A stretch of 64,000 bases of DNA from Pseudarthrobacter siccitolerans (lineage in GTDB: Bacteria; Actinomycetota; Actinomycetes; Actinomycetales; Micrococcaceae): the NCBI RefSeq assembly GCF_030823375.1, contig NZ_JAUSXB010000001.1:1984001-2048000 (forward strand), in the 5' to 3' direction. The stretch's first letter is position 1. Each line of letters starts with the position of its first letter. Below, one piece after another: positions 10,803 through 20,433 of this stretch. The position numbers and the translations under genes are program-made. The notes below the pieces were generated by a model, which was given only the letters and a program-made list of their open reading frames with translations, was not told the origin of the DNA and did no database searches.

Positions 10803-11533
10803 GCGTCGAAGTGTGTCTGGATGCTGGTGCCCTGCAGCTGTTCAATCAGTTCCGTGGCCACGTCCCGCAGCTTCCGGTTGCGGTTGCTGGAGACCTTGGT
10901 CAGGATCTCCATCGCTTCTGATTGCGAGCACCTGTTCTGCGCCATGATTACACCACACGCGAGGTTGATGGCGGTCCGGCTTTGCATTGCTGCTTCCAGG
11001 TCTTCCGCCCGGTTTTCCGCAGTTTTGATCCGGACCGACAGATGCAGCGTGCTGTGGGCGGCGGCGCCAAAACCCACGGCCTTGTCGTAGACGTTGGGGC
11101 TGAAGACGCCCGGCCTGGACGCGAAGAAGTTCAGTGCCGCGCTTGCTTCATTGTTGATTTCCAGGGGCACACCCAGCGAGCTGTAGACGCCTGACTCGGC
11201 GAATCTTTTGGCCAGCTCTGGCCACCGGGAGTCCGAGGAAACATCGTCGATAATCACCGGCGACATCTCCTTCAGGGCCCTCATGCAGGGCCCATCACCG
11301 ACGGCCTGCTCGATGCGGTCGAGCTCGATGGCCCGATTGCTGCTGCCGGCAACCGTAGACGGCCTGCGCCGCAGCTTGACGGTCACGGCGCACTCAACGG
11401 CATCCCCCGACGCTTCGGAAACCGCTGCAGCGGCCAGCCCGGAGAGCCCCGACAGGAACTGCAGGCCATCCTCCGCCCCCACCAGGATGTCTTGAAGCTG
11501 CGCGACCGATTCGTTGTCCGATGAATTCGACAT
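10799..11533 (-). CDS. GAF-ANTAR regulator 1
   Basis: This 244-residue protein has a GAF sensor domain (about 15-165, with the DGPCMRAL and SRWPELAKRFAESGVYSSLGVPL signatures) followed by an ANTAR domain (SRTAINLACGVIMAQNRCSQ.EAMEIL, then KLRDVATELI). ANTAR domains bind paired stem-loops in nascent RNA and prevent termination. The GAF part senses an unknown ligand or redox signal. It ends in THFDA, a tail shared with regulators 2 and 6. It is preceded on the same strand by the DUF2254 gene (gap 51 bases), so the two may be cotranscribed. Confidence 0.88.
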   Translation of the reverse strand: MSNSSDNESVAQLQDILVGAEDGLQFLSGLSGLAAAAVSEASGDAVECAVTVKLRRRPSTVAGSSNRAIELDRIEQAVGDGPCMRALKEMSPVIIDDVSSDSRWPELAKRFAESGVYSSLGVPLEINNEASAALNFFASRPGVFSPNVYDKAVGFGAAAHSTLHLSVRIKTAENRAEDLEAAMQSRTAINLACGVIMAQNRCSQSEAMEILTKVSSNRNRKLRDVATELIEQLQGTSIQTHFDA

Positions 11534-11584
11534 AGGCCCATCTTATGTGCCACCCATAAAAGCGGGGGCGTTGGAGTATTAGAG

Positions 11585-13054
11585 CTAGGGACGGTTGTGT
11601 TCCAGGGCTGCCGCCTCGGGTTCGTCCGAGGGCTTGGGCATCATCCTTTCCGATGCGCGCCGGATCGCTTCCCGGGCATGTGCCAGTCTTCGACTATCGA
11701 GTCCTGCCCCGTGCAGCGCAGCTTCCAGTTCGGTCATGGCATTGTGCAGTGCCGGCGCATCCGGGTGCTGGATAACAGCCGGCATGCAGGCATCAATGGC
11801 GGTCTGGAAGCTTTCCACGTCGCTTGGGTGCAGCCTTGGTGCAAGCCGGGTGAACGAGCGGACCAGTTCGGCACAGGTTTGGACCTGGCGCGACTCCGCA
11901 CTGGCAATAACGAGGTTGGAGAGGGCCGAAAGTCCGCGGGCCACCGCTCCGTCCGTATAGACAATGGGAAGCTCCTCCCGATCCTTTGAACGGTCCGACC
12001 GGTCCCGTTCACCACTGATCAGCCAGCGCCCGAGGAGATCTGAGAGCGACCGCACAGCCACTATGGCTGTGCTGGGACTCTGGCCTGCGCTGGTGGCCGT
12101 GGCCCAGGCAATGTTCTCCAGCTGGTCCAAGGCATAGCCCGATTCCGCGTCAACGTCCCGAACGTCGTCGATGCCAAAAGCGGAGAGGACGTCTGCGTCG
12201 TACGAATCGTCATCTGCGTCCACCCCCACAACCCGCGCCACCACTTCGGCGAAGACGAGGTACTCACCGAGCCTGCCCTCGATGAGGATCTCAGCGTTCC
12301 TGCCGACCCGACGCGCCACTTCGGCCAGTTTGGGAAGGTCAATGGTCACCACGTATCCGCTGTCCAGCACCTTGACTGATCTTTCGGCTGCGCCCGGGAA
12401 CGTCCGCCGTTCAACCCTGGTACTGCCCAACAGGCGCAGCTCGCTTTCCCTGGCCTCAAGGGCCAGTTCATGGATAGAGCGCATCACGGACTCGGGCCGC
12501 ATCTGGTCGATGGTGGCGTGGATCAACATCAGCAGGACAACCAAGGCAACGATAGTCAAAAGCAAGGTTATACATGCGCCGTAAACAGGGGCCGGCCCCT
12601 CCTCCCGGGCAAGGCCGAGGACCAGGAAAGTGAAGGCGGAGGCGCCAACAAAAAAACCGAAGTAGGCCTGGTTCGGCTTGCGACGAAGAAACTGGTCCAG
12701 GACTACCGGAGTGAGGGAACTCGCTGTTTGCTGCACTGCAAGCAGCAGTACCGAGAACGTAATTGATGTGACGGTCAACAGGCTCGTTGCCACAGCGGAC
12801 ACGAAGTCGACCGCTCCGCCGCCAGGCACCAGGCTTTCAGCCGCGGCACGCAGCCCCGAGCGGCCGGTGGAGGAAGCATCCAGCACCGATACCACCACAC
12901 CGGCAACGCAAAAAGAGATTGTAACCATCAGTGGCAGCCGCAGAAACTCGGCAACTCCGCGCTGAAGCCGGCTCGCCTCATGCATGCCGCCCGAGCTGCG
13001 GAGAGGATCCCGGAGCGCTGCTTTCCGCACCGCAGGTTTGTCCGTGTTACTCAC
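11585..13054 (-). CDS. DUF2254 family membrane protein
   Basis: This protein has 489 residues. Four hydrophobic helices in the first 170 residues are arranged as in DUF2254 proteins, including SITFSVLLLAVQQTASSLTP, a hallmark of that family. A long soluble C-terminal region follows. The function is unknown; the fold suggests a membrane-anchored domain possibly related to ion transport or stress. I selected GTG 13054 because GGAGGTG precedes it; an open frame back to 13120 lacks such a signal. The gene sits inside the GAF-ANTAR island. Confidence 0.8.
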   Translation of the reverse strand: MSNTDKPAVRKAALRDPLRSSGGMHEASRLQRGVAEFLRLPLMVTISFCVAGVVVSVLDASSTGRSGLRAAAESLVPGGGAVDFVSAVATSLLTVTSITFSVLLLAVQQTASSLTPVVLDQFLRRKPNQAYFGFFVGASAFTFLVLGLAREEGPAPVYGACITLLLTIVALVVLLMLIHATIDQMRPESVMRSIHELALEARESELRLLGSTRVERRTFPGAAERSVKVLDSGYVVTIDLPKLAEVARRVGRNAEILIEGRLGEYLVFAEVVARVVGVDADDDSYDADVLSAFGIDDVRDVDAESGYALDQLENIAWATATSAGQSPSTAIVAVRSLSDLLGRWLISGERDRSDRSKDREELPIVYTDGAVARGLSALSNLVIASAESRQVQTCAELVRSFTRLAPRLHPSDVESFQTAIDACMPAVIQHPDAPALHNAMTELEAALHGAGLDSRRLAHAREAIRRASERMMPKPSDEPEAAALEHNRP

Positions 13055-13223
13055 CCGCCCACACCTCCGGATCTGTCCGTCCGTCCCCCATCCACGAATT
13101 AAGACCGCCTGCCTGACCACTTCGAATAACTACAAATACTGAGGATCAATGTTTACTTACCCGGCCGTCCGGGCCTTATTCAACGGGCCCGGACAGCAAC
13201 GGATTCTTTGGCGAGCCAAGCGC

Positions 13224-13448
13224 CTATTCAGGAAGTTCCATCTGGAAACCGCACTGGCAGTGCAGTACCTGCGTGGTGAGGTAGACGTCCAAGGCGTCTT
13301 CAAACGGCCCGTCAGTGAAGGCCGGCATGCTGAGCCGGCGCAGTTCGGAGCCGGTTTTCCGCATGGGTTCCCCACAGTGGATGTAGTGCCTGCCGGAGGC
13401 AAGCACACCTTCGATGCGATTCCCGGGTCCCTCCGGATGGATGGACAT
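13224..13448 (-). CDS. Small Cys-containing conserved-looking hypothetical protein
   Basis: This 74-residue protein has two cysteine-containing clusters, HYIHCGEPM near residue 24 and a C-terminal HCQCGFQMELPE. Spacing of Cys and His suggests a possible zinc site, but I know no named family. ATG 13448 starts two bases after the stop of the upstream gene (13451-13708), so the two form a tight operon. Frame composition (high G/C at third positions) supports real coding. Confidence 0.6.
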   Translation of the reverse strand: MSIHPEGPGNRIEGVLASGRHYIHCGEPMRKTGSELRRLSMPAFTDGPFEDALDVYLTTQVLHCQCGFQMELPE

Positions 13449-13450
13449 TG

Positions 13451-13708
13451 CTATGCGGCGGCCGGGTAGCTGGACAGGATGTAGTCGGCCGCTGCCGGGC
13501 CCACCATCCGGAGTTTGGTGTCGTGGAGGTCGACGCCGGCCCGGTGCATCGCTGCGCGGAAGGCGACGTCCGTCTTGGCTAACATCCCCTGGAGCAGGCA
13601 CCAACTGACGTAAAGCCCATAAAGGCAATCCGCAGACATAGGGCAGTCAGTGTCGAATTCCGGGACGGTTGCTTCAGCAAGGAACTTTGTGAAATGCGAG
13701 TCAGCCAC
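13451..13708 (-). CDS. Hypothetical protein, first gene of a two-gene unit
   Basis: This 85-residue protein starts at GTG 13708 with AGAGGG upstream. It contains three cysteines (TDCPMSADCLYGLYVSWCLLQ) and a helical C-terminal half (FRAAMHRAGVDLHDTKLRM). I do not recognise the family. It may bind another protein or a metal, but nothing in the sequence proves this. It lies upstream of the 13224 gene in the GAF-ANTAR island, on the same strand as regulator 2. Confidence 0.6.
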   Translation of the reverse strand: MADSHFTKFLAEATVPEFDTDCPMSADCLYGLYVSWCLLQGMLAKTDVAFRAAMHRAGVDLHDTKLRMVGPAAADYILSSYPAAA

Positions 13709-13892
13709 GATGGCCCTCTTTCGCCGGTGTGCATTTTTCCGCCGTCTTGCTACAGCGGTCACTCCTGAAAGGCCCTGCACATGGCCCGGAGGGGTAAGTC
13801 ATCAAAATAAGTGACGCCTACCACTAAGAATTTACGCACTGGCCGTACTTCTGTCCAATCGCATTTGTGGCGTACCCGCTGAACTCAAGGCA

Positions 13893-14681
13893 TTACTCAT
13901 CGAAGTGTGTACGCAGCGCGGGGTCCGGCGAGACTGATTCGATGACCCCTGCCGCCACATCCCGCAGCTTGACGTTGCGGCTGTTGGAGGCCTTCCTCAA
14001 AATGGCCATCGCTGCGGCCTGGCCGCATCGGTTTTGAGCCATGATCACGCCCACGGCAATGTCGATGGCCGTCCGCGACTTCATGGCAGCCTCCAGGTCC
14101 TCCTTCGCATCCCTCAACTGGGCCAGGCGCAGTTCAAGCCGGAGCGTTTTGGAAGACTGCTCGCCAAAAAACTCGGCCTGTGCGATGTCCCCAGGTGAAA
14201 AACCCTGAGCTGCCGATGAATAGACATTCAGGGCAGCCGAGGAGTCCCCCTCGAGTTGCAGGGGCACACTGAGGATAGAGCCGACACCATAGGCTGAGAC
14301 TGCCTGGGAATACTCCGGCCAGCGGTGTTCGCTGGCAACATCTGCCACGTAGATAGTCTTTCCGGTCCGCATGGCCGCCAGGCAGGGCCCGTCACCATAG
14401 GCGTACTGAAGCTCATCCATGACCCGGGCCCTGGGCGTACTGGAAGCGACGGTGATGGGGCGCTTCCGGCGCACCACCGTCACGTTGCAGTGGAGTTCTC
14501 CGCCGGGCGGGGCCAGGAGGGAGGCCGAGAAAACCGCGAGTTCCTCGAAGAAGTCCTGGGCGTCAGCGGTTTGCAGGACGAGGTCCTGCAAACGGGATAC
14601 GATCCCGTCCTGAATTGCAGCGGCAGCGGGCAAAACGTCTGCTCTGATGGGCAAAGAGGCTGTGTCGGGCTGGGCGTCCAT
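13893..14681 (-). CDS. GAF-ANTAR regulator 2
   Basis: This protein has 262 residues. After a variable N-terminus comes a GAF domain (about 50-190; YGDGPCLAAM, HRWPEYSQAVSAYGVGSILSVPL) and a full ANTAR domain (MKSRTAIDIAVGVIMAQNRCGQ, KLRDVAAGVIES). The tail is TRTHFDE-like (LRTHFDE), as in regulators 1 and 6. It is predicted to be a cytosolic RNA-binding antiterminator. ATG 14681 has AGGGA 8 bases upstream, better than the TTG nine codons earlier. It diverges from regulator 3 across a region of about 240 bases. Confidence 0.87.
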   Translation of the reverse strand: MDAQPDTASLPIRADVLPAAAAIQDGIVSRLQDLVLQTADAQDFFEELAVFSASLLAPPGGELHCNVTVVRRKRPITVASSTPRARVMDELQYAYGDGPCLAAMRTGKTIYVADVASEHRWPEYSQAVSAYGVGSILSVPLQLEGDSSAALNVYSSAAQGFSPGDIAQAEFFGEQSSKTLRLELRLAQLRDAKEDLEAAMKSRTAIDIAVGVIMAQNRCGQAAAMAILRKASNSRNVKLRDVAAGVIESVSPDPALRTHFDE

Positions 14682-14920
14682 TTCGATGTCCCTGAAATTG
14701 GGCTTCAACCGCAGCGGTTTCCCACGCGGCCTTTAGACGCCCACTTCCAAACGCTTTCCCCAGACTACATCGAGTCGACGTTCTTACGGAAAGCCGCTGT
14801 GCGGAACCCGGCGCGGCGGCATCTGCAGGGGCTATGCTGGTAATGGATCGAAAAAGTTTTTCCGGTCCGGCCCAGCAGGGGGCATCCCACAGCAATGTCC
14901 GCCGCAGAAGGTTGGCTACC

Positions 14921-15649
14921 ATGCCACAACAGCTCCCCCTGGATGATCTCACTCTCGCATTGGCCCGCATTAATGACCTGCTCCTGACCGAGGAGAAGGT
15001 AGACAGGGCCGTCCAGTTGCTTGCCGAAGGCATCCGTGATGCCTTTCCCGGAAGCTCCGGTGCCGGCGTATCGCTCCTGGACGAAAAGGGCACCAGAACC
15101 AGCACAGGAGCCACGGACCCCGTTGTCCTGGAGGCAGATTCTGCCCAGTACGAGCTCGGCCAGGGACCATGCCTTACCGCCTGGGCCAGCGAACGCACTG
15201 TACTGATCGACGACGTCTTCACCGACGACCGCTGGCCCTTGTGGTCGCAGGCGGTCAGGGACCTGTCCATCCGGTCCGTCATCAGTTCACCCCTCATGGC
15301 AGGCAGGCGTTGCCTGGGGGCATTGAAAATTTACTCATCCCAGCCCGGGGCCTTCGACACTTCCACCTCACGACCGCTGGAAAAACTTGTGGTGCCGGCG
15401 GCTACCCTCTTGGACAACATCCAAAGCTCGGACTCCCCTCTTCGCTTTACCAGGGTCCTGACCTCTGCCCTGGACAGCCGGGATACCATCAACCGTGCCC
15501 AGGGCTTCCTGATGCGGCTGCACGGCTTGGACCAGGGCGAAGCCCTCAAGAAACTGGTAGAGCTATCCAGGACCTCCAGACAGTCACTTCTCAGCGTCAG
15601 CAGAGAGATACTCAACGGGACGAAGAACCTCTCCGATGACGGAACATGA
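14921..15649 (+). CDS. GAF-ANTAR regulator 3
   Basis: This 242-residue protein opens MPQQLPLDDLTLALARINDL, a leader shared with regulator 4 (MAQQLPLDEL...). The GAF domain has GAGVSLLD, GQGPCLTAWASE and RSVISSPL. The C-terminal ANTAR part (SRDTINRAQGFLMRLHGLDQGEALKKL) is diverged but keeps the helical spacing. It overlaps the small protein gene at 15636 by 14 bases, and the P450 gene follows, so translational coupling in a three-gene operon is likely. The frame is open upstream to 14834, but ATG 14921 matches its paralogue. Confidence 0.87.
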   Translation: MPQQLPLDDLTLALARINDLLLTEEKVDRAVQLLAEGIRDAFPGSSGAGVSLLDEKGTRTSTGATDPVVLEADSAQYELGQGPCLTAWASERTVLIDDVFTDDRWPLWSQAVRDLSIRSVISSPLMAGRRCLGALKIYSSQPGAFDTSTSRPLEKLVVPAATLLDNIQSSDSPLRFTRVLTSALDSRDTINRAQGFLMRLHGLDQGEALKKLVELSRTSRQSLLSVSREILNGTKNLSDDGT

Positions 15650-15926
15650 CAGGAGCAGCCCCGATCCCTCGGCTGGAATTGAGCAGGAACAAAGCCGGCT
15701 CCTGCGCAAAGCCCTGCTCCGCTCCGGCCTGAAGCATGGGGACCTCTGGCTGCGCTACTTCAGCATCGGAGGCACGGTGGGTGAGTACGAAGTGGATGCC
15801 TACATCCAGTCACTGCTGTCCCTGCCGCCGGGTCAACGGGACCTGCTGGCCCACGCAGCAAATGAACTCATCGACGAACTTCCACCATTGCCCCGCGCAC
15901 CGTACTTGGAGGACCTCACCAAGTAA
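15636..15926 (+). CDS. Small partner protein A (paralogue family with 18152 and 19397)
   Basis: This 96-residue acidic protein has the core DLWLRYFSIGGTVGEYEVDA followed by YIQSLLSLPPGQRDLLAHAA and NELIDELP. Two further genes in this island encode clear paralogues, each directly after a GAF-ANTAR gene. The fold looks all-helical, with no catalytic residues and no membrane segment. The function is unknown; the fixed position suggests it acts with the regulator, for example as a modulator. ATG 15636 lies inside the end of the GAF-ANTAR gene. Confidence 0.8.
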   Translation: MTEHDRSSPDPSAGIEQEQSRLLRKALLRSGLKHGDLWLRYFSIGGTVGEYEVDAYIQSLLSLPPGQRDLLAHAANELIDELPPLPRAPYLEDLTK

Positions 15927-15941
15927 GAAGGAGCCCGATTC

Positions 15942-17318
15942 ATGAAAAGCCGCACCGGCCTGCCCAAGGCCACCGCGTTGGAGTCCGCCGCTTTTTTCTT
16001 TGATGTGTTCCTGCCAACCACGGCGAAGGGCCCGATCATCCGCCGGCCAAAGGTGGAGGCAGGAGCGGAACGGCTGGGCCTGGATGACCGGGCAGTCCGC
16101 CGCATGGCCAAGCTCGCCCGGAAATACCGTGAGGGGCCGCTCATGCTCCGGCTCCCGGGGCGCGAGCAAGCCGTGGTGCTGCAGCCGGAACACCTGCATT
16201 ACGTCCTGGCCAACTCACCGGAGCCTTTCTCCCCGGCGAGCAGCGAGAAGAAAGCGGCGCTTGCGCACTTCGAACCACGGTTTGTGCTCATCTCCGAAGG
16301 CCGGGAGAGGACCGCGCGAAGGGCGTTGCAGGAACAGGTCCTGGACGCGCACAGTCCTATTCATCACCTTGCAGCATCCTTCATACCCATCGTCCGGGGA
16401 GAGGCGGACCAGCTGTTGCGGGGCATCAAGGACGGAAGCCCGGCTGGAAACATGGAATTGGGATGGGACCACTTCATCCAGACGTGGGACCGCGTGGTGC
16501 GGCGAAGCATCTTCGGGGATCAAGCCCGTGATGACCACGAACTGACCGACATGCTGGCCAAGCTCCGGGAAAATGCGAATTGGTCTTTCCTCAAGCCCAA
16601 GGACAAGGGTCTACGGACGAAGTTCCTCAGCCGCGTTGAGGACCGGATGAAGAATGCTGAGCCGGGCAGCCTGGCATTTTCCATGGCAAAGATGCACCCC
16701 GGCCAGGACGCGGCGCCGGTAGATCAGATCCCCCAGTGGCTGTTCGCCCTTGAAACGACAGGTATGGCCACCTTCAGGACGCTGGCACTCCTGGCCACGC
16801 ATCCGGAACACTTGGCCGCGGCCAAGGCGGAAGTGGAGCAGGACAGGACGGAACGCCGGCACCTGCCCTTCCTGCGCGCTTGTGTCCTGGACTCTCTGCG
16901 GTTGTGGCCCACGACGCCCATGATCCTCCGCCAGAGCACCAGGGAAGTAGAGTGGCCCGATGGCGACATGCCAGCCCGTTGCGGTGTCCTGATCTACGTC
17001 GCCTACTTTCACCGGGACGAAGCCCACGTCCCCCAGGCGCATTCCTTCACACCGGAGCGCTGGCTGGACAAGAACGGCGATGAGGGCTGGCCGCTGGTCC
17101 CCTTCAGCGATGGTCCGGTGTTCTGTCCCGGACGTCAACTCGCGCTGATGCTGAGCAGCGCCATGCTCGCCTCCCTTATTGAAAAGAGCTCTTTCACCCT
17201 GTCCTCCCCGCAGGCGCTTGGCCCGGAAAGACGCCTTCCCGGTGCGCTCAACAACTTCTCCCTGCGCTTCACCGTCTCCGGCAGCCAGCCGCATCCCAGC
17301 CGGGAGCCGAGTGCCTGA
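15942..17318 (+). CDS. Cytochrome P450
   Basis: This protein has 458 residues. The heme-thiolate loop PFSDGPVFCPGR is complete, with Cys395 as axial ligand. The K-helix, normally E-x-x-R, reads D317-S-L-R (CVLDSLRLWPTTP), a conservative but uncommon change. The I-helix region LFALETTGMATFRTL retains acidic-Thr-Thr. It would be a haem monooxygenase needing ferredoxin partners, none of which is nearby. It follows partner protein A by 15 bases, with a ribosome binding site (AAGAAGGAG) in the gap, so it is probably in the same operon and under GAF-ANTAR control. The substrate is unknown. Confidence 0.88.
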   Translation: MKSRTGLPKATALESAAFFFDVFLPTTAKGPIIRRPKVEAGAERLGLDDRAVRRMAKLARKYREGPLMLRLPGREQAVVLQPEHLHYVLANSPEPFSPASSEKKAALAHFEPRFVLISEGRERTARRALQEQVLDAHSPIHHLAASFIPIVRGEADQLLRGIKDGSPAGNMELGWDHFIQTWDRVVRRSIFGDQARDDHELTDMLAKLRENANWSFLKPKDKGLRTKFLSRVEDRMKNAEPGSLAFSMAKMHPGQDAAPVDQIPQWLFALETTGMATFRTLALLATHPEHLAAAKAEVEQDRTERRHLPFLRACVLDSLRLWPTTPMILRQSTREVEWPDGDMPARCGVLIYVAYFHRDEAHVPQAHSFTPERWLDKNGDEGWPLVPFSDGPVFCPGRQLALMLSSAMLASLIEKSSFTLSSPQALGPERRLPGALNNFSLRFTVSGSQPHPSREPSA

Positions 17319-17422
17319 ACGCGCGCGCCCGGGGAAGGCTCCCGCCGTCGTCATCGCTTCATGCCCGCAGAATCCCTGTGAGCCAAGGGACGGCGGGAAC
17401 GCCTTGGCCCTATGCTGGAACT

Positions 17423-18142
17423 ATGGCGCAGCAACTTCCCCTCGACGAGCTCAGCACTGTGATCGCTCGAATCCAGGGGTTGCTGCTGACGGAAGAAAAG
17501 GTGAAAACGGCCGTCCGGCTCTTAGCCCAGGCGGCCAAGGAGTCGGTTCCGGGCACCATCGGAGCGGGGGTATCCCTCCTGGATGCCCGTGGGCGCCGCA
17601 TCAGCAGCGGTTATACGGACAGGATCGTGGCTCAGACCGACGCCATGCAGTATGAATGCGGCGAAGGCCCCTGCCTGACCGCGTGGGCTACGGAAAAGCC
17701 GGTTCTTCTCGAGGACATCCGGGAGGAGTCCCGGTGGCCGGACTGGCGCAGGGCAGTGCAAGGGCTGCCAGTGCGCTCGGTGGTCAGCGCTCCCCTCATT
17801 GCGGGCAGGGAGTCCATCGGCGCACTGAAGTTGTATGCCGCGGCCCCCAACACTTTTGACGAATCCAGCACCGCCTTGCTTCAACTTTTTGCGGCGCCGG
17901 CCGCCACGCTGCTCTCGCACATCCAGGCCAGCGAGGCACCCCACAAAATGACCGAGGGCCTGCAGACATCCTTGTACAGCCGTGACCTTGTGAACCGTGC
18001 ATGCGGCGTGCTGATGGAGCGCCTGGGGATCAGCCACGAAGCGGCCCTGCAGTGGTTGATCAGGCAAGCGCGGGACGAGAACACAGCATTGCAGGACATC
18101 AGCGCGCACGTCCTGGCCGGGACGCCGGCGCCCGGGTCGTAG
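17423..18142 (+). CDS. GAF-ANTAR regulator 4
   Basis: This 239-residue protein is closely similar to regulator 3 from its first residues (MAQQLPLDELSTVIARIQGLLLTEEKV in two blocks). The GAF domain has GAGVSLLD, GEGPCLTAWATEKPVLLEDI and RSVVSAPLIAG. The ANTAR helix is YSRDLVNRACGVLMERLGIS. It probably arose by duplication of the regulator-partner module. ATG 17423 is chosen by paralogy; the ribosome binding site is weak. Partner protein B starts 9 bases after its stop. Confidence 0.87.
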   Translation: MAQQLPLDELSTVIARIQGLLLTEEKVKTAVRLLAQAAKESVPGTIGAGVSLLDARGRRISSGYTDRIVAQTDAMQYECGEGPCLTAWATEKPVLLEDIREESRWPDWRRAVQGLPVRSVVSAPLIAGRESIGALKLYAAAPNTFDESSTALLQLFAAPAATLLSHIQASEAPHKMTEGLQTSLYSRDLVNRACGVLMERLGISHEAALQWLIRQARDENTALQDISAHVLAGTPAPGS

Positions 18143-18151
18143 GAAGCGCCC

Positions 18152-18499
18152 ATGGGCTTTGATCCTAACGAACCCGAACAACGGCGCAGGCTGCGTTCAG
18201 CCATGAGGGCCGCAGGCATCTCCGTGTCCGAGTTGTGGCTGAAGTATTTCGGCATGTCCGGAGACGCCGGCGAATACGAGGTGGAGGCATACCTGCAGGG
18301 GCTCCTGTCATTGCCACCGGTACAGCGTGACCTGCTCGCGTTGGCGGCCAACGAGCTCATTGACGACCTTCCCCGGCCACGGGCACCGTACTCTGACGAT
18401 TTCGACGGTGGTCCAGGCCCCAGCCCAAGCACCTCCGGTCCCGCCGCACAAGAGATCCGGAAAGATGGCACCGGCGCGCAATCGGAAGCGGACGAGTAG
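18152..18499 (+). CDS. Small partner protein B
   Basis: This 115-residue paralogue of the 15636 product has the core ELWLKYFGMSGDAGEYEVEA, then YLQGLLSLPPVQRDLLALAA and NELIDDLP. About 30 extra residues at the C-terminus are Gly/Pro/Ser-rich, then acidic, and probably unstructured. Nothing indicates an enzyme. It directly follows GAF-ANTAR regulator 4, repeating the same gene order as the 14.9-15.9 kb pair. Confidence 0.78.
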   Translation: MGFDPNEPEQRRRLRSAMRAAGISVSELWLKYFGMSGDAGEYEVEAYLQGLLSLPPVQRDLLALAANELIDDLPRPRAPYSDDFDGGPGPSPSTSGPAAQEIRKDGTGAQSEADE

Positions 18500-18668
18500 A
18501 TCGAAGGACCGGGCGTATCAATAGGTCCGGCACCGGCGTAGTGTCGGTAGTAGGAGATTTCGGGATAGCCAACAGATCCAGAGGTTGAATGATCGGGTTC
18601 CCCGCGTAGAGAGCGGAGGCCGCCAGCCAGGGGCATGTGCCCACGGCGCACCCATGGATCGAGGGCCG

Positions 18669-19400
18669 ATGGCCCAGGACAGCAGCCTTACCACTTCGGA
18701 CCAGATGCAGGATTTGCTCCTCGAAAGTCCCGGGTTCCCTGAGTTCCTCCTGGGTTTGGCCACTATCTCCGCCTCGTTGCTCGGCTCCGACGGTCTGGTC
18801 ACCTGCACCATCACCGTGGAGCGCGACGGAGGCCCTGCAACGGTTGCGAGCAGCAGCGAGGAGGGGCGGCGGCTGGATGAAACGCAGTACGCGTTCGACG
18901 ACGGCCCCTGCCTGACTGCCGCACGGCAGCAGCGCCTGGTGTTGATCCCGGACCTGAAAAGCGACCAGCGCTGGAGCGACTATCTGGACGCCGCACTCCG
19001 GGAAGGCGTGCGCTCCGTACTGGCTGTCCCCATCCCCACAGACCCCTTTTCGCATGCCGGATTGAACTGCTATGCAAGCACGGTGGGCGCCTTCAACGAG
19101 GCGACAATAGCGCTTCTCGGACAGCACGCGGCGGCCATGTCCCGTGTGCTCCGGATCGCCCTGCGGCTGCACGGGGCGGAAATCCATCCGGACCACCTCC
19201 GTGCTGCGCTGAAGTCGCGGGCCGTGGTGGACGCGGCCGTGTCGCTCATCATGCTCCAGCAGCACGGCGGACGGGAAGGCGCGCTGGAGGTGCTTCAACT
19301 GGCCGCGAAGTCCGGTAACCGCAGGATGCAGGACATCGCCACTGACATCGTCCGTGGAGCCGCACTCCCCGGAACCCAGCGAGACGGAGGGCAGGAATGA
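18669..19400 (+). CDS. GAF-ANTAR regulator 5
   Basis: This protein is 243 residues from ATG 18669 (GAGGG just upstream; 18654 is an alternative). The GAF domain has FDDGPCLTAARQQRLVLIPDL and GVRSVLAVPIPT. The ANTAR segment is KSRAVVDAAVSLIMLQQHGG then RRMQDIATDIV; it keeps the helix pattern but lacks the usual G-x-[IL]-M glycine (VSLIM). Its last codons overlap the start of partner protein C by an ATGA junction, so the two are translationally coupled. Confidence 0.85.
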   Translation: MAQDSSLTTSDQMQDLLLESPGFPEFLLGLATISASLLGSDGLVTCTITVERDGGPATVASSSEEGRRLDETQYAFDDGPCLTAARQQRLVLIPDLKSDQRWSDYLDAALREGVRSVLAVPIPTDPFSHAGLNCYASTVGAFNEATIALLGQHAAAMSRVLRIALRLHGAEIHPDHLRAALKSRAVVDAAVSLIMLQQHGGREGALEVLQLAAKSGNRRMQDIATDIVRGAALPGTQRDGGQE

Positions 19401-19648
19401 ATCCCTTTGAAACTGACGGCCCGGAGCCAGCGGACCGGGCCTTCGAAGAACGGCGGGGCACAGCGGAGCGTTTCCGCAAGACCGACCTTCCGCTGGCCCA
19501 ACTGTGGACGTACTACTACGGGCTGGGCGGCGGAATCGACGAGACGTCCCTGGATGCCTATCTTCACGAGGCACTCGACATCCCGGCCGGGCAAGTCGCG
19601 CTGATCGCCATGGCTTTGACGGAACTGATGGAAGGCGAAACCCAATGA
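19397..19648 (+). CDS. Small partner protein C
   Basis: This 83-residue member of the partner family is more diverged: QLWTYYYGLGGGIDETSLDA, YLHEALDIPAGQVALIAMAL, TELMEGE. It keeps the LW..YY/F.GG...E....DAYL pattern and the final E-L motif. It is locked between two GAF-ANTAR genes by ATGA overlaps on both sides (19397-19400 and 19645-19648), the tightest arrangement of the three modules. Confidence 0.78.
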   Translation: MNPFETDGPEPADRAFEERRGTAERFRKTDLPLAQLWTYYYGLGGGIDETSLDAYLHEALDIPAGQVALIAMALTELMEGETQ

Positions 19649-20433
19649 CGAACCACGAACCCATGGCCGGAAACTTTGGCGCCTTGCCTCAGGCCGCCCC
19701 GGCCATCCAGGCATCCCCGGACATGGAAACGCGGCTGCAGGGACTGGTTCTGGCCAGCAAGGATGTCATCAGCTTCCTGACCGATCTCGCGGTGCTGGCC
19801 TCCTCCAGGCTGTCCTCCCCGGGCAACCGTATCCACACCGGCGTCACCGTTATCCGGCGCAAGAGGCCCGAAGCCCTTGCCAGCAGCGATGCGGCGGCCA
19901 GAGCACTGGATGAGCTGCAGAACGGGTTCGGCGACGGTCCGTGCCTGACGGCCCTTCGCAACGGAACCACCCTCCTGGTTCCCGACCTGACCGACGAGCG
20001 GCGGTGGGCTCCGTATGTCAAGGCCGCCCGGGAGCATGGCGTCTGCTCGATCCTTGCAGTACCAATGGATCTGGCCGGCGAGGCCGAAGGCGTGATGAAC
20101 CTGTATTCCGGCTGCAGCAGCGGGTTCACTGCCGAGGATATTTCCACCGCGGAAGCGTTCGCCAGCCAGGCCGCCAGTTCACTGCGGCTGGTCCTTCGGA
20201 TCGCCCAGCTCAGTGAGGCCAGAAACGACCTCGCAATAGCGATGCAGTCCCGCACCGTGATCGATATGGCCATCGGAGCCATCATGGCCGAGAACAGGTG
20301 CACCCGGGACGTGGCCTTCAACATCCTGACCAAGGCCTCCAGTGCCCGTAATATCAAGCTGCGCGAAGTGGCGGCTGCCGTCATTTCATCCATTTCGGGC
20401 GAGAAGCAGATCGACACCTACTTCGACGAATAG
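19645..20433 (+). CDS. GAF-ANTAR regulator 6
   Basis: This 262-residue protein resembles regulators 1 and 2 more than 3-5. The GAF domain has VIRRKRPEALASSD, FGDGPCLTALRNGTT and GVCSILAVPMDLAGEAEGVMN. The ANTAR domain is QSRTVIDMAIGAIMAENRCTR then KLREVAAAVISS. The tail is IDTYFDE. ATG 19645 overlaps the stop of partner C. It probably works with regulator 5 and partner C, since all three are coupled. Confidence 0.88.
   Translation: MTNHEPMAGNFGALPQAAPAIQASPDMETRLQGLVLASKDVISFLTDLAVLASSRLSSPGNRIHTGVTVIRRKRPEALASSDAAARALDELQNGFGDGPCLTALRNGTTLLVPDLTDERRWAPYVKAAREHGVCSILAVPMDLAGEAEGVMNLYSGCSSGFTAEDISTAEAFASQAASSLRLVLRIAQLSEARNDLAIAMQSRTVIDMAIGAIMAENRCTRDVAFNILTKASSARNIKLREVAAAVISSISGEKQIDTYFDE

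Follow-up and report, generated by a model that had tools for sequence, protein, structure and literature searches.

Small acidic proteins encoded behind GAF-ANTAR sensors in Pseudarthrobacter siccitolerans are homologous to the N-terminal domain of actinobacterial SpoIIE phosphatases

In a 64,000-nucleotide stretch of the Pseudarthrobacter siccitolerans genome (hereafter the window), three genes encoding GAF-ANTAR proteins are each followed directly by a gene for a small acidic protein, here named s1, s2 and s3. Sequence comparison establishes that the two genes form a conserved couple, that each couple is inherited together, and that the small protein shares ancestry with the N-terminal domain of SpoIIE/PP2C phosphatases. 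From these features we infer that the small protein docks onto its GAF-ANTAR, with the ANTAR end as the most likely site. We give an even chance to the reading that each of these GAF-ANTARs has in the small protein a docking partner of its own, of a kind that relatives carry as part of a phosphatase, and that the output of these ANTAR domains is at least partly protein-directed. The couples and the gene that closes the array are as follows:

14921..15649, + strand: GAF-ANTAR1, sensor of couple 1 (Pfam GAF_2 8.1e-14, ANTAR 8.1e-13), in the coupled lineage of the tree; start uncertain, reading frame open from 14834
15636..15926, + strand: s1, small acidic partner protein of 96 aa, from open reading frame (ORF) reading and homology; AlphaFold2 (AF2) model with a mean predicted local distance difference test score of 88.9
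17423..18142, + strand: GAF-ANTAR2, sensor of couple 2 (Pfam GAF_2 5.7e-17, ANTAR 2.2e-14)
18152..18499, + strand: s2, small acidic partner protein of 115 aa, in frame with GAF-ANTAR2
about 18654..19400, + strand: GAF-ANTAR3, sensor of couple 3 (Pfam GAF_2 5e-10, ANTAR 1.6e-9), in a clade other than that of GAF-ANTAR1 and GAF-ANTAR2; a start at 18669 is also possible
19397..19648, + strand: s3, small acidic partner protein of 83 aa, with ATGA overlaps at both ends
19645..20433, + strand: GAF-ANTAR4, directly after s3, with a canonical-type ANTAR (Pfam ANTAR 2.9e-15) and in the canonical clade of the tree

Direct ORF reading reproduced exactly the three couples with paralogous partners described in an earlier note on this DNA, together with their junctions: a 14-nt overlap between GAF-ANTAR1 and s1, a 9-nt gap between GAF-ANTAR2 and s2, and an ATGA overlap between GAF-ANTAR3 and s3. 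Beyond that note, s3 also overlaps GAF-ANTAR4 by ATGA, and is thus tied to the sensor gene before it and to the one behind it; a fifth gene, GAF-ANTAR5, lies on the opposite strand. Pfam detected GAF and ANTAR domains in all five genes, with ANTAR scores for GAF-ANTAR1 to GAF-ANTAR5 of 48.4, 53.4, 37.8, 56.2 and 56.8 bits, all above the curated cut-off of 27.3. The window genome (4.5 Mb) carries 18 ANTAR domains; by simple arithmetic, a same-strand ANTAR gene ending within 250 nt upstream is expected by chance for about one gene in 2000, and was seen for three of three small-protein genes. A scan for promoters and terminators returned fewer sites than in shuffled sequence.

The small proteins belong together. 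Searching the window genome with s1 recovered s2 at 63% identity (E 1.6e-26) and s3 at 31% identity (E 7e-8), and the net charges of s1, s2 and s3 are -5, -9 and -10. They matched no family in Pfam, NCBIfam, PHROGs or PADLOC, apart from a sub-threshold Pfam hit of s3 to DUF1206 (E 0.031). A search of one protein collection with s1, in which a length limit admitted short proteins only, gave 277 relatives among 282 candidates; among the 120 matches listed, those named by their source were hypothetical or uncharacterized. Judged by homology, the small domain is an unnamed domain family brought out by this analysis. The earlier statement that no named family fits the partner therefore holds for the small protein itself, while the homology to the N-terminal domain of SpoIIE/PP2C phosphatases was not visible from the window's sequence alone. 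A kinship to solved structures by sequence was rejected (the best match, of AcrIF4 type, had E 0.02 over 47 positions and was not credible), as was a PADLOC match of GAF-ANTAR2 to ShosA at E 0.056. In viral contigs, 11 stretches fitted a pattern, none of them a relative of the small protein.

The AF2 model of the small protein has a helical arrangement that may resemble that of XRE/POU-type helix-turn-helix domains. In one alternative explanation, the small protein would be a DNA-binding regulator of that fold, with the GAF-ANTAR a mere operon mate or ligand sensor. The small protein differs from such domains in being acidic and in showing no detectable sequence kinship to them: the HTH_3 profile matched none of 27 family members at E up to 10, and hhalign against XRE domains of the same genome gave 0.6% and no kinship. 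We regard this explanation as quite improbable. An hhalign comparison with ANTAR likewise revealed no kinship.

At two loci (L067 and L068) and on a Nocardia farcinica plasmid (L010), the small domain opens a protein of close to 500 residues that ends in a SpoIIE domain (PF07228, E 8e-28 to 5e-45). The N-terminal 100 residues of the L068 protein, used as query in a search for which only long proteins were eligible so that the length limit excluded stand-alone copies, gave 49 relatives among 121 candidates, and PF07228 was present in 49 of 49; the named relatives come from Lentzea, Amycolatopsis, Actinokineospora, Umezawaea and Cellulomonas. On this evidence the small domain is a natural part of a phosphatase in other actinobacteria. 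A GAF-ANTAR gene lies directly upstream on the same strand in seven of eight distinct phosphatase loci (L010, L067, L068, L069, L070, L164 and L166); in the exception, L165, an ANTAR gene is nearby on the other strand. The order of GAF-ANTAR followed by docking domain is thus not confined to Micrococcaceae. The PF07228 catalytic domain is carried by these relatives elsewhere only, Pfam detecting none in s1, s2 or s3. RsbU_N (PF08673) matched none of 27 family members at E up to 10 and none of three phosphatase forms at E up to 1, and hhalign of the small domain to a single actinobacterial RsbU_N sequence, a weak test, was negative.

To examine the prevalence of the couple, genome contigs were scanned with a close alignment; 152 stretches passed and the best 80 were kept, giving 79 loci in a set that favours close relatives. 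These come mainly from Arthrobacter, Pseudarthrobacter, Paenarthrobacter, Kocuria and Nesterenkonia, with one from Mycobacterium gordonae. Scoring adjacency, a check named in the earlier note, showed the couple to be widespread and placed 93 of 107 family-profile matches in these loci behind an ANTAR gene, meaning on the same strand with less than 400 nt from domain to domain. Thirteen of the others have no ANTAR directly upstream, and one (L139) is in one continuous frame with it, in what looks like a frameshift. The gaps within couples are mostly -14 to +15 nt, biased towards small values because the start codon nearest the ANTAR stop was chosen. Of 138 sensor-partner pairs, 136 have an acidic partner. 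A less selected set comprised all 54 places with stored loci from whole-genome searches: 29 lie directly behind ANTAR and 12 have an ANTAR within 1.5 kb in another arrangement. Its 38 strong matches divide into 27 directly behind ANTAR, three otherwise near and eight with none.

The family is patchy. It was found in 17 of 100 genomes of the window's family and, with at most 11 candidates scored per genome, in 10 of 394 genomes of the class; elsewhere it occurred in 7 of 60 genomes of the family of genome G347 (two near threshold) and in three of five of the family of G177. One genome of the window genome's family, G031, holds 16 copies, a lineage-specific expansion; among 11 places examined there, six are directly behind ANTAR and five have no ANTAR nearby. 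An orphan subfamily with the core [DE]LWLRYFSLGGNAGEEE[IV]DAYLYSSLLLP occurs in Arthrobacter agilis, A. bussei and others (L121, L133, L141, L150, L157 and L162), and the flanks retrieved for these contain no ANTAR. The 79 loci also include contigs with the title Vibrio cholerae strain 35D (L118, L137 and L141), which look like Arthrobacter and carry Arthrobacter-like family members, two of the three behind ANTAR genes; this record is probably mislabelled.

Next, we turned to the history of sensors and partners. When 134 GAF-ANTAR proteins were placed in a tree (quick method, midpoint root), a branch with support 98 set apart 59 rows (50 small-coupled, 7 phosphatase-coupled and 2 uncoupled), the sensors of s1 and s2 among them. 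The other side held 12 small-coupled rows, most of which belong to the s3 clade, itself nested within the canonical Micrococcaceae group. By this tree, the sensors of most couples are a lineage of their own, and the distribution of the label "small" takes 11 changes to explain, where shuffled labels take 44.7. Sensor and partner distances correlated with r 0.81 over 106 pairs (138 before redundancy removal); none of 2000 within-locus partner swaps attained this value, and none of 5000 restricted to the 19 multi-couple loci did so. The couples have therefore been inherited as units. The match of the trees is by itself not proof of contact, because the swaps mix different subtypes.

This caveat is the strength of the view that a physical link is absent and that a duplicated, co-transcribed gene block has kept its order by descent only: joint inheritance alone can match partner trees, the swaps mix clearly different subtypes, and most loci come from one family. 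Against it, the same order is found in Nocardia farcinica, Mycobacterium gordonae, phosphatase genomes of other families and Micrococcaceae, and it recurs in two sensor clades and with the domain built into an enzyme. We consider descent alone improbable. Taken together, the adjacency in 93 of 107 matches, the same order at phosphatase loci and the matched partner trees support well the functional couple that the earlier note had proposed.

We then considered whether these ANTAR domains look fit for RNA. The RNA contacts of EutV are Arg142, Lys143, Lys147, Lys149, Glu160, Tyr164, Arg168, Met172, Asn173, Arg175 and Arg177; the Y164A change weakens RNA binding 55-fold, and N173A/R175A/R177A abolishes it (PMC8934654). 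NasR needs R340, W362, R366 and N373 (PMC7496416). EutV numbering was transferred through the alignment by matching contact residues. Of the 55 canonical-clade rows that remain when the s3 rows are set aside, 54 have a basic residue at position 177, 34 an aromatic one at 164, and 6 an aliphatic residue or Phe at 168. The corresponding counts for the 58 coupled rows outside the canonical clade are 8, 12 and 50. All 11 rows of the s3 clade have a basic 177 and an aliphatic 164; a hydrophobic 168 occurs in one. The window couples keep Arg142 and carry other basic residues; positions 164, 168 and 177 are changed in GAF-ANTAR1 and GAF-ANTAR2, and 164 and 168 in GAF-ANTAR3. These residue differences are clade differences and not independent events. 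The partly drifted RNA-contact set of the stand-alone couples fits an output that has moved at least partly from RNA to protein. The dual stem-loop targets envisaged in the earlier note were not found: by a strict definition, under which single hexaloops were not judged, neither strand of the window holds a dual hexaloop, with 0.1 and 0.2 expected in shuffles.

Several observations weigh against protein docking, and some of them favour the mechanism of the earlier note, in which ANTAR would still be RNA-directed and the small protein a cofactor or anti-regulator opening or blocking its RNA-binding face. All rows of the three groups, among them the 68 non-canonical ones, have a basic residue at position 142. 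At position 149, which is Lys in EutV, a basic residue stands in 32 of the 68 non-canonical rows and in 0 of the 55 canonical ones, so that a contact still present in many coupled rows has disappeared from the canonical group. GAF-ANTAR1 is basic at 142, 147, 172 and 175, GAF-ANTAR3 keeps Arg177, and s3 adjoins the canonical GAF-ANTAR4. Phosphatase-coupled ANTARs keep Lys149 in seven of seven cases, Phe164 in six of seven and Lys177 in three of seven; RNA binding may therefore continue in these proteins, and the drift does not follow from coupling in itself. RNA and protein outputs may coexist. Gene adjacency and the acidity of the partner, as of a possible nucleic-acid mimic, would suit an RNA cofactor; the changes at 164, 168 and 177 in couples 1 and 2, the lack of strictly defined dual hexaloops in the window and the protein output suggested by the phosphatase forms speak against it. 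Because of the phosphatase link, a protein-directed output is at least as likely; we hold an RNA cofactor or anti-regulator to be somewhat unlikely. The earlier mechanism is partly replaced, and the earlier interpretation as a whole is partly supported.

The remaining adverse points concern contact and distribution. A model of GAF-ANTAR2 read through into s2 was confident over most of both parts, with a predicted template modelling score of 0.60 and no readable interface or mutual position; the structure matches listed for it (50 rows) align with the GAF part. Covariation between the proteins, computed on 94 of the 106 pairs (s3-type removed) plus two of the window, placed 30 of the top 100 scores in ANTAR columns, against a shuffled mean of 28.5 and maximum of 40. 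A first count, 46 of the top 100 in ANTAR with 24.4 expected by column share and a top score not above the shuffles, fell to this shuffled-pairing comparison. The window genome has two SpoIIE matches, which lie at least 200 kb away from s1, s2 and s3, and the small domain was found at neither. Finally, 13 of the 54 less selected family members have no ANTAR within 1.5 kb, which in part is the pattern of homologues scattered without GAF-ANTAR neighbours that the earlier note had named as contrary to its proposal.

Natural fusions of GAF-ANTAR and partner were also sought as proof of contact, and rejected. Candidates in L014 (StoSoilB13 plasmid) and L139 look like frameshift products, and a domain-restricted search returned only the L014 protein itself and one partial match. 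A protein on an Arthrobacter agilis plasmid (L011:3450-4268) has the small domain at its N-terminus and a GAF behind it, beside a convergent GAF-ANTAR gene; it looks real, but was set aside as fusion evidence since the GAF is a different one.

Our preferred reading, a dedicated docking partner, can be put as a mechanism. The module would be a two-gene signalling couple: one gene encodes a GAF sensor that ends in the three-helix ANTAR output, the other the small helical partner of that sensor, and the two are probably produced in step through translational coupling. In the simplest account that covers both forms, the small domain would receive the GAF-ANTAR signal, GAF sensing being relayed by protein contact. 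In the phosphatase form, docking of the GAF-ANTAR would switch a Ser/Thr phosphatase, much like the binding of RsbT to RsbU, a role for which a sensor encoded by the adjacent gene is well positioned. In the Micrococcaceae form, the docking domain stands alone and could work in trans on other proteins, or feed back on the ANTAR, as an adaptor or titrating regulator; possible roles of s1, s2 and s3 include recruitment of another protein, competition for a phosphatase and feedback on the ANTAR. A bolder version, which we put forward tentatively as a somewhat unlikely possibility, holds that in a branch of GAF-ANTAR proteins the ANTAR has acquired an RNA-independent second life as a protein-docking output, for SpoIIE-type phosphatases and for free docking domains in Micrococcaceae, with a new docking-domain family.

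Two neighbours complete the array:

15942..17318, + strand: cytochrome P450, neighbour of the couples (PF00067 2e-34)
13893..14708, - strand: GAF-ANTAR5, canonical-type neighbour without a partner (Pfam ANTAR 1.9e-15)

The P450 noted earlier behind the first module is a real gene by its Pfam match. It was rejected as a third, conserved component, as an orthologue occurs in only 2 of 79 related loci. In the window it separates couple 1 from couple 2; in two relatives, L085 and L086, it follows couple 1, whereas L084 lacks it there. It has thus been gained or lost within an otherwise conserved block. A sixth ANTAR domain lies on the minus strand at about 10844-11005, besides the five GAF-ANTAR genes at 13893-20433, so that positions 10844-20433 hold six ANTAR domains in less than 10 kb.

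In the openly licensed literature, we found no paper describing this small partner and none assigning targets to actinobacterial GAF-ANTAR proteins. As such proteins are numerous in these actinobacteria, a partner shared with SpoIIE phosphatases offers a handle on their targets, and the couple connects two signalling systems so far treated separately. Collectively, these observations suggest that such GAF-ANTAR sensors, familiar as RNA binders, may act through a grip on a partner protein as well.

Two known systems resemble the couple. The ANTAR antiterminators (EutV, NasR, AmiR, and PAL of Nakamurella) likewise carry an ANTAR domain (PF03861) behind a sensor domain; the window differs in having a dedicated small partner gene, in the changes of couples 1 and 2 at some RNA-contact positions, and in the lack of target hexaloops found there. 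In Bacillus subtilis, RsbT binds the N-terminal domain and linker of RsbU and activates this SpoIIE/PPM phosphatase (PMC12143880). The likeness to this system is that a small N-terminal domain heads SpoIIE phosphatases, here encoded behind GAF-ANTAR genes; the differences are that this domain is not RsbU_N by Pfam, that its putative partner is a GAF-ANTAR and not RsbT, and that in the window couples the docking domain stands free of the phosphatase part.

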